Assembly (NCBI GenBank): GCA_003670925.1 | Contig: QWQG01000145.1 | Coordinates: 1-33,655 of the forward strand | From: Planctomycetota bacterium | GTDB taxonomy: Bacteria; Planctomycetota; Planctomycetia; Planctomycetales; Planctomycetaceae | Length of the DNA: 33,655 nt | Direction: 5' to 3' | Shown: one piece after another, positions 6,472 through 12,218 of the stretch | How positions within the stretch are numbered: the first letter of the stretch is position 1 | Layout of the letters: each line of letters starts with the position of its first letter | The notes under the pieces: generated by a model | Told to the model about the DNA's origin: nothing | The model's input: the letters and a program-made list of their open reading frames with translations, nothing else | Databases searched by the model: none | Translations under genes and position numbers: made by a program

Positions 6472-7989
6472 ATGTCCCCAAAGCCTACGCCATCCAGATC
6501 CATCGTTGCGCCATCACGAGTTTCGAGTGGAATTCCTTGGTGGCTCTGCTTGATTTTGGTCATTTTTGGGATCTCAATCGCCGCGATGCTGGTCAGAAAA
6601 GCGATCCCTGAAGATCCCCAGATGACTTTTGAGGAAGGCATGGACGGACTCAAAAAAGGTGACATTGTGGCGGTTGAACGCAGCATCCAGAAGCTGAAGA
6701 ATTTCCCCGATCGTGCTTCAGAGTTAAAACTGCTCGAAGGCATGTTGTTGCTTGGCAAATCAAAGCCAATGCTCGCGATCCCCTTGCTTCAGGACGCCTC
6801 AAAGAATCCCGCGATCCGCGTCATAGCATTGACACAACTGGGGAACGCCTACATCCGTTCACAACAGCGAGTCGAAAGCATTGCAGCTTATGAGTCGGCG
6901 CTTCAAGAAGATCAAAACATGGATGAAGCTCGCCTGAACTTGGCACGTATTTATAAGAATATGATCAGCTGGGAGGACGCGATAAAGCAGCTCACGATCC
7001 TAGTGGAACGCAAGTTCGCGCCCGGCGATGTGCAGCAGATGCTGGGGGATATTTATGCAGATATGGGCCAATATGCGGAAGCCGCAACCGCATACGAAGC
7101 AGCAATCCTAGTGGATCCGACGAATCCCACAAATTCTGAAACAACGTCGCGTTTGCTCATGTGCCGCATCGAAACAGGCAACGTAGAAGGGCTCGAAGAA
7201 CTTCTCCAAGGCGTAGATGCGGCCGGCGTTCGTGAATCTACACGAGCTCTGATTCTGGCGGGAAAAGATGAAATCGAAGGGGCACTCTCCGCGCTCGATC
7301 TGACTCTGATAGACAATCCGAACGATTTAATCGCAAATCAGACGTACGGGAAAATCATGGCCAAGAGCGGTTCAAAGGAGAAATCGATTGAAGCGCTGAC
7401 AAGCCTGCAGCTACAGATCGGGATGCACACACACAATTTGAAATTATTCGAGGTCGTGGCAGAACTGGCGAAAATCGTGAAGGACGAAGAACTCGCGGCA
7501 ACGGCTCAGCAAAATGTCGATCAACTCAAAGATCTGAAATCACAGTTTTTGGCTAAACTTGGGGAAGTCGTCAAGACACGCGAAGAAGCTCCGGCTCGAG
7601 TCGAGCTCGGCGATCTAGCTGCTGCAACCGGTCAGATGGAACTCGCGCGCACGATTTATCTAGCCGCAGGCGTGATTGAACCCACGCTGCAAGGTGTCTG
7701 CGATGCAAAAATCCTGTCCCTCTACGAGGCTACGCCGCCTTTAGTTCCGCTCAGGACTAGGGGCACGACTCCTGAAACAGTTACGCCGGCCGATCAGGCT
7801 CCGGGACCAACACCGGAACCAACACCGGGACCAACACCGGAACCAACACCGGAACCAACACCGGAACCAACACCGGAACCAACACCGGAACCAACACCGG
7901 AACCAACACCGGGACCAACTCCGGGACCAACTCCGGGACCAACACCGGAACAAGCACCGGAACAAGCACCGGAACAAGCACCAAATTGA
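6472..7989 (+). CDS. Membrane-anchored TPR protein with Pro-Thr-Pro-Glu repeat tail
   Basis: A 505-residue protein. An N-terminal transmembrane helix (about 23-44: WWLCLILVIFGISIAAML) anchors it, probably with the rest outside the cytoplasm. Residues about 50-250 are tetratricopeptide-like helical pairs (ALTQLGNAYIRSQQRVES, EARLNLARIYKN, MLGDIYADMGQYAEAATAYE), and helical hairpins continue to about 425. The last 60 residues are 15 tetrapeptides of PTPE/PTPG, ending in QAPE/QAPN. Such proline-rich tails behave as stiff extended spacers. TPR domains usually scaffold protein-protein contacts; no enzyme motif is seen. It stands alone: divergent from apbE on the left and convergent with the YbhN-like gene on the right, 19 bp away. 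The partner is unknown. Confidence 0.85.
   Translation: MSPKPTPSRSIVAPSRVSSGIPWWLCLILVIFGISIAAMLVRKAIPEDPQMTFEEGMDGLKKGDIVAVERSIQKLKNFPDRASELKLLEGMLLLGKSKPMLAIPLLQDASKNPAIRVIALTQLGNAYIRSQQRVESIAAYESALQEDQNMDEARLNLARIYKNMISWEDAIKQLTILVERKFAPGDVQQMLGDIYADMGQYAEAATAYEAAILVDPTNPTNSETTSRLLMCRIETGNVEGLEELLQGVDAAGVRESTRALILAGKDEIEGALSALDLTLIDNPNDLIANQTYGKIMAKSGSKEKSIEALTSLQLQIGMHTHNLKLFEVVAELAKIVKDEELAATAQQNVDQLKDLKSQFLAKLGEVVKTREEAPARVELGDLAAATGQMELARTIYLAAGVIEPTLQGVCDAKILSLYEATPPLVPLRTRGTTPETVTPADQAPGPTPEPTPGPTPEPTPEPTPEPTPEPTPEPTPEPTPGPTPGPTPGPTPEQAPEQAPEQAPN
7807..7986 (+). repeat. 15 tandem 12-bp units within the TPR gene
   Basis: The consensus unit is CCAACACCGGAA, in frame as Pro-Thr-Pro-Glu. 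Variants are GGGA (Gly) at units 2 and 9-11, ACTCCG at two units, and CAAGCACCG (Gln-Ala-Pro) in the last three. The unit length is a multiple of three, so copy-number changes would keep the frame. The array ends immediately before the TGA stop. Confidence 0.97.
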
Positions 7990-8008: not shown

Positions 8009-9010
8009 TCACGGCTTCTCTGATGCTTTGCGCATATCCTTCAGACTCAATCCTGATTGGTGCAGAAAATACAAACCCAGCACTGTCACTGGAATGTACA
8101 TGCTCATGTGATAGTACACCGAAGAACCTAAGACCAGTGATGGATCAGGCTTCAACAATTGAGCATTCATGCTCACCTGAAAACACATCTGAATCACGCC
8201 GAAGTAACCTGGTGTTGAGGGGATCGTCACTCCGAACGCCGTTACGCCTGTCACGATCAGTCCTGTGGCCAGTGTCACATCAATGTGAAACGCCCGCAGC
8301 GCAACATATGCAATGAGTCCATTCAGGAGCCATTGCAGCAATGACGTGACGATGATCAACAGCACCGCTTTGCCACTCTTTAAAGCCATCAAGCCGTCGC
8401 CGCCTTTGCGCAGCATCTCCACGAGCCCGATTGAGAGTTTCGCGGGCAAAAATGGCAGCAGAGACAAGCTCCACGTGAGCAGGCGAATAAAGAGCTCGGT
8501 CCAGATCAAATAAACCACAACCGCCACCACGACCACTCCGGCAATCGCCCCCAGCAGCAGGGCTCCGTTGCGATAATTGTCCGGCAGTTCATCCGTAAAA
8601 GCTAACCCGATACCAAAAAGCGCCAGAATCGCGAGGACATCGAAGATCCTTTCAAGGATGACCGTGGACAGGACTGTGCTAGCCGGCACACCATATTTCT
8701 GCCGTACAACGAACACGCGAATGAATTCTCCGAGATGTGCGGGCAGAAGATTGTTCGCGGCAAATCCGATGAGCATCACGGGAAACAACTGCTTGATCGT
8801 CAGCGGTGCGACAGGTGCCAGCAGCCATTGCCACCGCAGCGTTTTAAGCCAGTAAAAACTAAACAGCAGCGCCAGCATGAGCGGCAGTGACCAGTAGTCA
8901 GCATTGAGAAATCCGGCTTTTAACGCCTTCGTATCTGTGCCCTGTAAAGACCAGGCGAAGCACGCCACAGAAACCACGATCCCCAGAATCAAAAAGAAGG
9001 CACGTTTCAT
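8009..9010 (-). CDS. LPG-synthase-TM/YbhN-type (UPF0104) membrane protein
   Basis: A polytopic membrane protein of about 333 residues from the family that includes YbhN, AglD and the flippase half of MprF. Family landmarks are TLRWQWLLAP, the loop LLPAHLGEFIRVFVVRQKYG, the following TVILERIFDVLAIL, and the late segment GVTAFGVTIPSTPGYFGVIQ. Seven to nine hydrophobic helices are visible. Members move or help synthesise polar lipids or lipid-linked sugars. The frame opens at a TTG (9025); the ATG at 9010 (MKRAFFLILG) is the more credible start and gives a clean first helix. It is divergently arranged with the kinase/glycosyltransferase operon at 9206, which suggests a shared envelope role. Confidence 0.9.
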   Translation of the reverse strand: MKRAFFLILGIVVSVACFAWSLQGTDTKALKAGFLNADYWSLPLMLALLFSFYWLKTLRWQWLLAPVAPLTIKQLFPVMLIGFAANNLLPAHLGEFIRVFVVRQKYGVPASTVLSTVILERIFDVLAILALFGIGLAFTDELPDNYRNGALLLGAIAGVVVVAVVVYLIWTELFIRLLTWSLSLLPFLPAKLSIGLVEMLRKGGDGLMALKSGKAVLLIIVTSLLQWLLNGLIAYVALRAFHIDVTLATGLIVTGVTAFGVTIPSTPGYFGVIQMCFQVSMNAQLLKPDPSLVLGSSVYYHMSMYIPVTVLGLYFLHQSGLSLKDMRKASEKP

Positions 9011-9205
9011 CGGGTGGCTGACCAAGCACTTTCATTCGACACATAGAGATTGAGGATCGCTGCGGCAGACCGGGGGTTCTACGCGGACTGGTGGAAAAGC
9101 GTCAAGACAGATCTCATCTTGAGTTCGATTTCGTGAATCCGATACGCTATCACGCCTCTCTGATGTTCCTTCCCCCATTGCTTCTCCTTCCACAGGATCG
9201 CGCAG

Positions 9206-10654
9206 ATGCATTCTGCGTCTAGTTTCCCCAGCATCGATGCGTTACCCGATCCAGCAAGCTGCCTCGTTGCTGCGCTCAATGATCTGCTGCGCGCCGTGGA
9301 AGGTCGTGTCGTTCTCTTGCGCCCATTGGCAGCATGCTTCAACAGCCATCGCGATGACATCGACTTGCTGCTCACCGAAGCCCAGTGTGAGCAGTTACTC
9401 TACGCAGCATTTGCACATTGCGTTCAAGGGCGAATTCATTGCCGGATCCAGCAAAGTTCGTCTGCCAAGGCGCAATTGATTCTGTGGACGATCGATTGCG
9501 GGCACATGCTGATGATCGATCTCTGGACCAGTTTTGATCAACTCCCATGTCGGCGCCACAGTTGCATCCCGGCGGGTCGACTTTTAGGTACGCTGACAAC
9601 CTCCGTTTCCGACGCTCAAATTCAAGCGACTGAAGAGATTCCAGCCCTGCGTCGACTACCGCCTGACATTGACCTCTGCCTTCTGATTCAGCACCTTGCG
9701 ACAAAGCGCAGGAAAGTGACCACGCCGGCCGTGCGCGAGCGCATCGCCCGCGCCTGCGAGCGCTTGGCGTCATGGTCGCCGGAACAGACATCTCAGGATG
9801 TGCCATATGATTCGTTGGCTGAACTGCGTGTTGTTGCCGCGCAACTACCAAGAGCCATTTTAAACACACCAAGGTTCATCGCACTGTCGCATGATTATCT
9901 TTTGCAGCGACTCAGGCGTGTGCCGAGCAATCGAGGACTTCCCGTGCTGGAGCCTCGGCGACGCCGAGGACAAGTGACCAAGTTTAGAAGGACAGTTCTC
10001 AAGCACCGTCCTACGGTGGCCGTCATTGGAAGTGACGGCGCTGGCAAGACGTCCGTCGTCTCGGCACTTGCCCTTCAACAACCGAATTCGGCGTGTGTCG
10101 TTGCGAAGAAGTTTTATCGTCGCGCGCTGACGTATCAGTTCATTAGCGGGCTAATGAAGCGACTCAGCGGCACAGATCGCGGCATGTTCGACGAGCGTGC
10201 GGCAGTTCTAGTTACGCTCCGAGCGACGGCTGCATTGTGGATCAGAATTTGGATGTCGGTGCACCCGTGGTCAAACAAGGCCATGCATTTTTTAATTCTC
10301 GATCGCTCTATCGCGGGTTTTCTGATCACCGACCGCAAATCCGACACGCCACGTCTAACACGTGGCGCGACATGGATTGAAGAATTAATCCCGCCTGTGA
10401 CGAGCGTTCTTCTGACGTTGCCACATGCGGAACTGACACGCCGCAAACAGGAAATGTCGGCCCACGGCCACGATGCCTATCAACGCATGCTCTTCGAGCA
10501 AGCGCTCCGCCAGCAACCAACAGATCTGATTCTGCTTGCGAATCTGCCGTCGGCTCAGGCTGCTGCGGCGGCCATCTGTGAATTGCTGCGGGGCGATCGG
10601 CAATCAGCCGAATCATCGACAGAAACAGTAGGCAACAGAAAGGCGGTGGCATGA
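9206..10654 (+). CDS. Nucleotidyltransferase-like / P-loop kinase fusion protein
   Basis: A 482-residue two-part protein. Residues about 20-130 resemble a nucleotidyltransferase fold: RDDIDLLL carries the two carboxylates (Asp51, Asp53) and MLMIDLW a third (Asp105). The usual Gly-Ser before the first pair is replaced by Asn-Ser-His, so activity is uncertain. Residues about 268-465 form a P-loop domain with Walker A GSDGAGKT (275-282) and LILDRS (363-368), similar to the ERS/DRS of thymidylate-kinase-like enzymes. RRKQEMSAHGHDAYQ (412-426) follows where that family has its lid. I have seen NTase/thymidylate-kinase-like fusions in polysaccharide clusters, but the substrate is not evident. The stop overlaps the next gene's ATG, so translation is probably coupled. 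Confidence 0.75.
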   Translation: MHSASSFPSIDALPDPASCLVAALNDLLRAVEGRVVLLRPLAACFNSHRDDIDLLLTEAQCEQLLYAAFAHCVQGRIHCRIQQSSSAKAQLILWTIDCGHMLMIDLWTSFDQLPCRRHSCIPAGRLLGTLTTSVSDAQIQATEEIPALRRLPPDIDLCLLIQHLATKRRKVTTPAVRERIARACERLASWSPEQTSQDVPYDSLAELRVVAAQLPRAILNTPRFIALSHDYLLQRLRRVPSNRGLPVLEPRRRRGQVTKFRRTVLKHRPTVAVIGSDGAGKTSVVSALALQQPNSACVVAKKFYRRALTYQFISGLMKRLSGTDRGMFDERAAVLVTLRATAALWIRIWMSVHPWSNKAMHFLILDRSIAGFLITDRKSDTPRLTRGATWIEELIPPVTSVLLTLPHAELTRRKQEMSAHGHDAYQRMLFEQALRQQPTDLILLANLPSAQAAAAAICELLRGDRQSAESSTETVGNRKAVA

Positions 10655-11487
10655 TGTCTCCTCTTCGCCTTCTCAATGCATGGATCGATCATCAGCGACT
10701 GGCGGAACGCCGGCGGCAGGTGGAATGGCAACTTGGCGTCGTCTTCAAACAACCCATCACGCTGCGACCCACGTTTTCCGGTGGTGGCTTCGACCGGATC
10801 TACCTCGCACACGCAGATTCGCAACAGGCAAAAATCTTAGCCAGCGTCCGCATGAATGTGCCCGGCCGCGATCGACCGCAAAAAGAGCCGCATCTTCCTC
10901 GCGTTCCATTGCCCGGTGAACACCGCATTCACCGCGAAGCCCACGCGTATCGACAACTGTCGCCGCTCGGAATCGCGCCGCGGTTGATTGCACGCGGCGA
11001 ATTCTACCTCGCGAATCACTGGCTTCCGTGGCCACGTTTGGCGGATGTGCTGCGGCATCACAGTCATCTATTGTGGGAGCTTCTTCCCGTGGCCCTTGAT
11101 GCGATTCGCGAAATGCACGAGCACGATGTGGTTCATCTGGATCTGAATTGTGGCAATCTGCTGATTGCTCCTGATTTCCAATCAGTGGCCATTATCGATT
11201 TCGAATTCGCACCGCTGCTGCTGATGAGTCGATTCGATCAGCAGCGTTTCGATTATCTGCGACTGGCTCACAACCTGCTCAAGCCGCGCCGCGGTCGGGA
11301 GGCTGCGTTTCTGCAACCTGAACGCTTCGTCGAAGTATTTGCTCGATACGTCCCGGAAACTGGTCTCGGGATTCCGGATGCAATGAACACCGCGTGGTTT
11401 GACCGAGTCATCGAACATGATGTTATCCGTACCGGTTTCGCAGAGATCTTCGGAGTCCTCGATGGCGAAGCAAAGGTGATTCTATGA
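10651..11487 (+). CDS. Lipopolysaccharide-kinase-like (InaA/KdkA/WaaP-type) protein
   Basis: A 278-residue protein-kinase-like fold. A glycine-rich loop is seen at about 43-48 (SGGGFDR). The catalytic loop reads HLDLNCGN (162-169, with Asp164 and Asn169) and the metal-binding motif is IDFEFAP (Asp183), the DFE/DFG equivalent. The short length and HLDL rather than HRDL fit the family that phosphorylates Kdo or heptose in lipopolysaccharide (InaA, KdkA, WaaP), as opposed to eukaryotic-type Ser/Thr kinases. The ATG overlaps the stop of the fusion gene upstream, and its own TGA overlaps the ATG of the glycosyltransferase gene. The sugar phosphorylated, if any, is unknown. Planctomycete lipid A and core chemistry is poorly known, so the acceptor may be something else. 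Confidence 0.8.
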   Translation: MMSPLRLLNAWIDHQRLAERRRQVEWQLGVVFKQPITLRPTFSGGGFDRIYLAHADSQQAKILASVRMNVPGRDRPQKEPHLPRVPLPGEHRIHREAHAYRQLSPLGIAPRLIARGEFYLANHWLPWPRLADVLRHHSHLLWELLPVALDAIREMHEHDVVHLDLNCGNLLIAPDFQSVAIIDFEFAPLLLMSRFDQQRFDYLRLAHNLLKPRRGREAAFLQPERFVEVFARYVPETGLGIPDAMNTAWFDRVIEHDVIRTGFAEIFGVLDGEAKVIL

Positions 11488-12218
11488 ATCAGTTTGTCTG
11501 CATGAACTGGGGCACAGTCTACGGTGCGGACTACGTGAATCGTCTGTATTCGATGATCGCCCGCAATACGCAGTATCCATTTCGCCTAGTGTGCTACACC
11601 GATTCCAGAGTCGGAATTCGCAGCGAAGTGGAGTGCTTTGATTGCCCGGAAGTCGATATCCCATCACCAAAACGCAATCGCGGCTGGCGGAAGTTGGCGC
11701 TGTGGGCCAACGAACTGCCGAGTCTGAGCGGCACCGTATTGTTTCTAGATCTTGACATCGTGATCACCGGCGGACTGGATGACTTTTTTACGTATCGACC
11801 CTCTGCTGACTTCTGCGTGATCCAGAACTGGACTCATCCTGATCGCCTGATCGGCAATACATCTGCATACCGTTTCACGGTCGGTAGTCATCCGGAAATC
11901 CTCAATCGGTTTCTCGACGATTTTCGATCAGTGCTCGAAAAATATCCGAATTCACAGACATACATTTCCTCGTGCCTTGAGAAGTCGATCGAATTCTGGC
12001 CATCGGAATGGTGCCGAAGTTTCAAACGACACTGCGTACCTCGCGGTGTGACACGCTGGTTTCGCGAGCCGCTGTTGCCCGTAGGTGCCCGCTTGGTCGC
12101 ATTCCCCGGTCGCCCTAATCCCCATGAAGCACTCGACGGAAGATGGCCCGCGCCATGGTACAAACGAGTCTACAAACATGTCCGCCCAGCTGAATGGATT
12201 CAGCAACACTGGCGCTGA
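11484..12218 (+). CDS. Glycosyltransferase-like protein with DXD motif
   Basis: A 244-residue GT-A-type protein. The core motif VLFLDLDIVI (85-94) contains Asp89-Leu-Asp91, the metal/nucleotide-sugar-binding DXD. Upstream, NRGWRKLALWANEL (65-78) resembles the Lys/Trp region of GT8-like enzymes. Downstream, SAYRFTVGSH and PSEWCRSFKRH are where acceptor and nucleotide contacts often lie. No signal peptide or membrane helix is seen, so it is probably cytoplasmic or peripheral. It is the last gene of the overlapped trio and is followed by a hairpin. Sugar donor and acceptor are unknown. Confidence 0.75.
   Translation: MNQFVCMNWGTVYGADYVNRLYSMIARNTQYPFRLVCYTDSRVGIRSEVECFDCPEVDIPSPKRNRGWRKLALWANELPSLSGTVLFLDLDIVITGGLDDFFTYRPSADFCVIQNWTHPDRLIGNTSAYRFTVGSHPEILNRFLDDFRSVLEKYPNSQTYISSCLEKSIEFWPSEWCRSFKRHCVPRGVTRWFREPLLPVGARLVAFPGRPNPHEALDGRWPAPWYKRVYKHVRPAEWIQQHWR

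Follow-up and report, generated by a model that had tools for sequence, protein, structure and literature searches.

A small planctomycete operon with an NTase/P-loop kinase fusion as a candidate for envelope-glycan modification

The products of the locus described here can be set against three protein families: the Kdo/WaaP kinases (KdkA, WaaP; PF06293, NF002475), the GT8 glycosyltransferases (LgtC, glycogenin and the GT8 domain of WbbM), and the thymidylate/adenylate-type NMP kinases. Systems that combine such activities are also known. In the TakA-TglT pair, a kinase neutralises a nucleotidyltransferase (NTase) by phosphorylation (PMC7205606), and MenAT likewise joins an NTase fold with a kinase fold (PMC10435456). 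The O-antigen capping enzyme WbdD, a kinase-methyltransferase with a protein-kinase fold, phosphorylates a glycan (PMC3482155).

The window, i.e., the whole stretch of 33,655 nucleotides that was analysed, contains an operon of three genes, fus-kin-gt. As in TakA-TglT and MenAT, an NTase fold and a kinase fold are predicted side by side, in fus and kin; the operon differs from those pairs in an extra P-loop kinase domain, in its own glycosyltransferase and in its glycan-related neighbourhoods. Like WbdD, kin is predicted to have a protein-kinase fold, and in genus g5 a methyltransferase lies near kin. Unlike WbdD, the window operon has no kinase-methyltransferase fusion, no methyltransferase and no polymer export genes.

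The locus and its three overlapping genes

The genes fus (9206–10654, 482 aa), kin (10651–11487, 278 aa) and gt (11484–12218, 244 aa) follow one another on the forward strand, and each junction is an overlap of exactly 4 bp, ATGA (10651–10654 and 11484–11487). On the reverse strand the flippase-like gene flip (8009–9025, 338 aa) diverges from them across an intergenic region of 180 bp (9026–9205), which is presumably the site of promoters for both flip and fus. This is the layout given in the original prediction, three overlapping genes divergent from a flippase-like gene, and the reading frames lie where it placed them. Among the four genus members with the operon, dN/dS values, where calculable, were 0.06–0.12 for gt, 0.08–0.17 for kin and 0.14–0.31 for fus; because this whole range (0.06–0.31) indicates purifying selection, and because the frames and overlaps are kept in other species, we consider the genes to be real. 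No larger polysaccharide cluster surrounds the operon within the window. Upstream, at 7800–7985, the C-terminus of a TPR protein is a proline/threonine-rich tandem repeat (PEPTPG/PEPTPEP) with a regular DNA repeat beneath it.

The product of gt had been described as a DXD glycosyltransferase-like protein, and structure prediction agrees. The model (pLDDT 88.9) has a GT8 fold over its whole length, matching LgtC with a Z of 18.1 (215 residues aligned, rmsd 3.5 Å) and glycogenin with a Z of about 17.6, and the two acids of its DLD motif, D89 and D91, are invariant in 17 relatives. It differs from GT8 proteins in sequence: the window gt has no match in Pfam, with PF01501 giving none at E up to 1, while 4 of the 17 relatives do match that profile (best E 6e-4). 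Rhizobial relatives are found at 36–40% identity, some of them annotated as glycosyl transferase. In the lineage of the window gt, i.e., the operon gt and its closest relatives, FPG stands where other relatives have a C-terminal FHG; if the His of FHG is the GT8 metal-binding residue, this lineage would have lost it. Two genomes (G179 and G183; L054, L063, L055, L064) carry two tandem gt relatives, about 2 kb apart, and no fus.

For kin, described in the original prediction as LPS-kinase-like, the catalytic motifs and a weak Kdo/WaaP match hold, but every family cut-off is missed. The protein scores 19.9 bits against PF06293 (cut-off 21.3) and 30.9 bits (E 1.3e-7) against the KdkA model NF002475 (cut-off 142), which is among its best NCBIfam matches; further weak matches, also below cut-off, are to the APH, Pkinase and choline-kinase families. 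Residues H162, D164, N169, D183, E96 and R67 are invariant in 12 homologues, as are the catalytic HxDxxxxN and DFE motifs that kin shares with the Kdo/WaaP kinases. It departs from them at the invariant Arg R67, which replaces what is, read by eye, an apparent Lys in a genuine PF06293 member encoded next to fus in genus g70. Judged by these motifs, kin would be a distant Kdo/WaaP-type kinase with a small-molecule/protein-kinase fold. Its matches in the PADLOC library were generic kinase matches, and since fus had none there, a defence role was rejected; among viral contigs, no relatives of kin were found.

The fusion protein fus falls above the cut-off of no Pfam family and has no NCBIfam assignment. 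Its AlphaFold model (pLDDT 82.7, pTM 0.84) resolves an NTase-like domain at residues about 16–130 and a P-loop kinase domain of the TMK/AK type at residues about 266–466, in agreement with the earlier description of an NTase-like/P-loop kinase fusion. The C-terminal domain superimposes on dTMP and adenylate kinases with a Z of 12.6 (167–183 residues, rmsd 3.0–3.1) and shares with them a Walker A motif (GSDGAGKT, in which G275, D277, G278, G280 and K281 are invariant across 16 homologues) and a DR motif (DRS). It differs from them in the fused NTase-like domain and in sequence, since the PF02223 profile does not match the window fus and matches only 3 of the 16 homologues, marginally. A search of PDB sequences with fus returned only ABC and ARF P-loop matches, which we judged to be Walker A noise.

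In the N-terminal domain, the original prediction had seen a degenerate-looking NTase. This is not what the homologues indicate: D51 and D53 (in DDIDLL) and the third acid, D105, are invariant in 16 homologues, of which those other than the window copy are 22–76% identical to it. In the model, strands run at 51–55 and 101–107, and the order of N-terminal strands and helices is that of a pol-beta nucleotidyltransferase; fus carries the DxD and third acid of the pol-beta NTase superfamily on strands of the NTase core. The usual hG[GS] nucleotide-binding motif is altered and reads LRP or LRG. Among the fold matches listed, a list filled by the kinase domain, the only NTase was JHP933 (4o8s; E 0.004, poor superposition), a protein described as an NTase (PMC4125220). 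Because this single fold match is weak, the NTase assignment rests mainly on motif and topology.

Outside the family, four matches to fus were considered. Those in G318 and G488 are genuine though remote homologues, at about 25% identity; the match in G308 was rejected because it is MnmE, and that in G517 because it covers just a short segment of an open reading frame that is probably spurious. In the last of these, from another family (L107:6714-8399), 44 residues match the NTase core of fus at 64% identity and look like the remnant of a transferred copy.

Conservation and neighbourhoods in other genomes

The order flip<>fus-kin-gt, with both ATGA overlaps, is kept in four species of the genus (G000, G014, G001, G012), whereas the outer flanks vary: in G014 and G001, the homologues of the TPR and alpha/beta-hydrolase genes that neighbour the operon in the window are found on different contigs. 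In G006, fus and kin, with a 4-bp overlap, are found at a contig end without gt. In G062, which belongs to another genus, the cluster is reshuffled to gt-fus-kin, with identities of 60/28/30%. Thus, the gene order, whose conservation beyond this strain the original prediction had left to be established, is not strain-specific.

Across the 170 genomes of the family, fus is present in 17 and an orthologue of kin (E of 3e-40 or better) in 13, and every kin carrier also has fus (13/13 genomes, 5/5 genera). The co-occurrence has a Fisher p of 2e-16 by genome and 1e-6 by genus, the genus-level value being the fairer one because the genomes are related. The carriers of fus without kin are three g70 genomes and G069; in the latter, gt is represented by a fragment whose open frame spans 52 aa and which may lie at the end of a contig, so that the lack of kin may reflect an assembly gap. 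The operon is patchily inherited and has probably moved laterally; no relatives of fus were found on plasmids. In G182, an intact kin is accompanied by a broken second copy, on another contig, beside fus (L037:10209-10619, L104:4003-5178).

The flippase-like gene has a different distribution. Its product is a YbhN/LPG_synthase_TM-type membrane protein that scores 155 bits against PF03706 (cut-off 33.4) and is also above the cut-off of TIGR00374, and it is the sole PF03706 match in the window's genome. The gene is present as one copy per genome in 18/18 genomes of the genus, including 14 without the complete operon, and adjoins the operon in all four complete carriers (in G012 it runs off the contig end). 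The earlier view of flip as a component of the cassette is therefore weakened: because it is a core gene found in all 18 genomes of the genus and not restricted to operon carriers, it is a conserved neighbour and not a cassette-defining part. The copies that adjoin the operon fall into two lineages, G000/G014 and G001/G012. Over the 99 residues that are available, the flip proteins of G001 and G012 are 86% alike; to those of G000/G014 they are alike at about 42%. By its operon, in contrast, G001 stands nearer to G000 (kin 85%) than to G012 (kin 73%). These conflicting histories suggest lateral exchange that has placed the operon beside two distinct flippases, which hints at a working relationship with flip.

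The neighbours of fus vary among genera. In all 6 of the 6 fus-carrying genera, one of the genes directly beside fus encodes a glycosyltransferase or a Kdo/WaaP-like kinase. In the three g70 genomes, which have fus without kin, the next gene upstream of fus encodes a PF06293 kinase above the cut-off, and a GT9 protein and an FkbM methyltransferase are encoded nearby; GT9 is the heptosyltransferase family. In genera g42 and g43, five genomes have a GT4 gene as the next one upstream of fus, and in G063 a relative of this GT4 adjoins gt. In g5, the methyltransferase and a gene of YrbL type (PF10707) precede kin, with fus convergent, and a YrbL-type gene also lies before kin in G071. In G070, a 4-bp overlap joins kin to gt, and kin in turn overlaps the preceding lnt, for apolipoprotein N-acyltransferase (L101:7016-10556), while fus is on a separate contig beside a GT4 gene. 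The constant pair is fus with a kinase, and the glycosyltransferase partner (gt, GT4 or GT9) varies by lineage. The window's genome also encodes a Kdo-transferase domain of the KdtA type (PF04413), and Kdo-type LPS is therefore plausible.

Proposed function and alternatives

We consider it on balance probable that the small operon fus-kin-gt acts on a glycan or glycolipid of the cell envelope and modifies it by phosphorylation and glycosylation. An envelope-glycan role is supported by independent neighbourhoods in other genera, whose members include GT4, GT9, a Kdo/WaaP kinase, an FkbM methyltransferase, a DegT aminotransferase and Lnt. Of the original proposal of an envelope glycan/lipid cassette, the envelope role is retained on the strength of these neighbourhoods and of the conserved order, whereas flip as a cassette-specific component and the degeneracy of the NTase are not. 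By its fold and motif, gt would use a nucleotide sugar as the donor for glycosyl transfer, in the manner of LgtC on the LPS core, and kin, on the same kind of evidence, would phosphorylate a sugar hydroxyl on the same glycan. With little certainty, both heads of fus might act on a single group that carries phosphate: the P-loop kinase may add phosphate to a small substrate that is already phosphorylated, and a glycan hydroxyl may receive, through the NTase, a nucleotidyl group or one that bears phosphate. Translocation by the neighbouring flip is plausible. A glycan role for the NTase of fus would be unusual, since the common targets of pol-beta-type NTases are RNA, protein or small-molecule hydroxyls. 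The more specific notion of a new surface modification, in which kin phosphorylates an envelope glycan and fus furnishes that glycan with a nucleotidyl- or diphosphate-bearing group, is one that we hold to be unlikely.

A second reading starts from the pairing itself. A partner with a protein-kinase fold accompanies fus in nearly every carrier, sometimes unlinked, and the distribution is patchy, as might be expected if the genes formed a kinase-controlled NTase module like TakA-TglT or MenAT, in which kin would phosphorylate and restrain the NTase and the glycan genes would be incidental or the target. JHP933, the only NTase among the fold matches listed, also comes up in the TakA-TglT paper (PMC7205606). 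However, such pairs offer no role for the fused TMK-like kinase, kin is as close to the Kdo/WaaP and APH small-molecule kinases as to protein kinases, and fus has no match in the PADLOC library, which covers defence systems and not toxin-antitoxin pairs in general. The linkage to GT8, GT4, GT9, FkbM, DegT and Lnt in several genera is also left unexplained by such a module, and because of these glycan neighbourhoods we rank it lower, as an improbable account of the operon.

Quite improbable, too, is that the operon serves to produce or alter a small, secreted and glycosylated natural product, aminoglycoside-like or of another type, which the NTase and the kinase would tailor in the manner of ANT and APH enzymes. 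Aminoglycoside nucleotidyltransferases do belong to the pol-beta NTases, kin matches the APH and choline-kinase families, and the operon is small and patchy. Homologous neighbourhoods, however, carry GT9, a PF06293 protein of the LPS-kinase family and Lnt, and no polyketide, peptide or aminocyclitol synthesis gene is present among the annotated neighbours. That fus is instead a nucleotide salvage enzyme or NMP kinase, with the four genes sharing no pathway, as the thymidylate/adenylate kinase fold of its C-terminal domain might suggest, is very improbable, since the thymidylate kinase of this genome (Tmk, PF02223) is encoded elsewhere, fus being distinct from it and not matching its profile, since fus and kin co-occur across genera, and since the order of the operon is kept although its flanks differ.

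Modification of an envelope glycan or glycolipid thus remains our preferred reading of fus-kin-gt. A search of the literature on planctomycete LPS chemistry and on NTase-TMK fusions in polysaccharide clusters returned nothing direct. The parts of the operon are ordinary, and their combination is unusual and conserved. It places an unnamed NTase/NMP-kinase fusion in a functional context and, in a phylum for which the chemistry of lipopolysaccharides and surface glycans has been little described, provides a compact, testable genetic unit.
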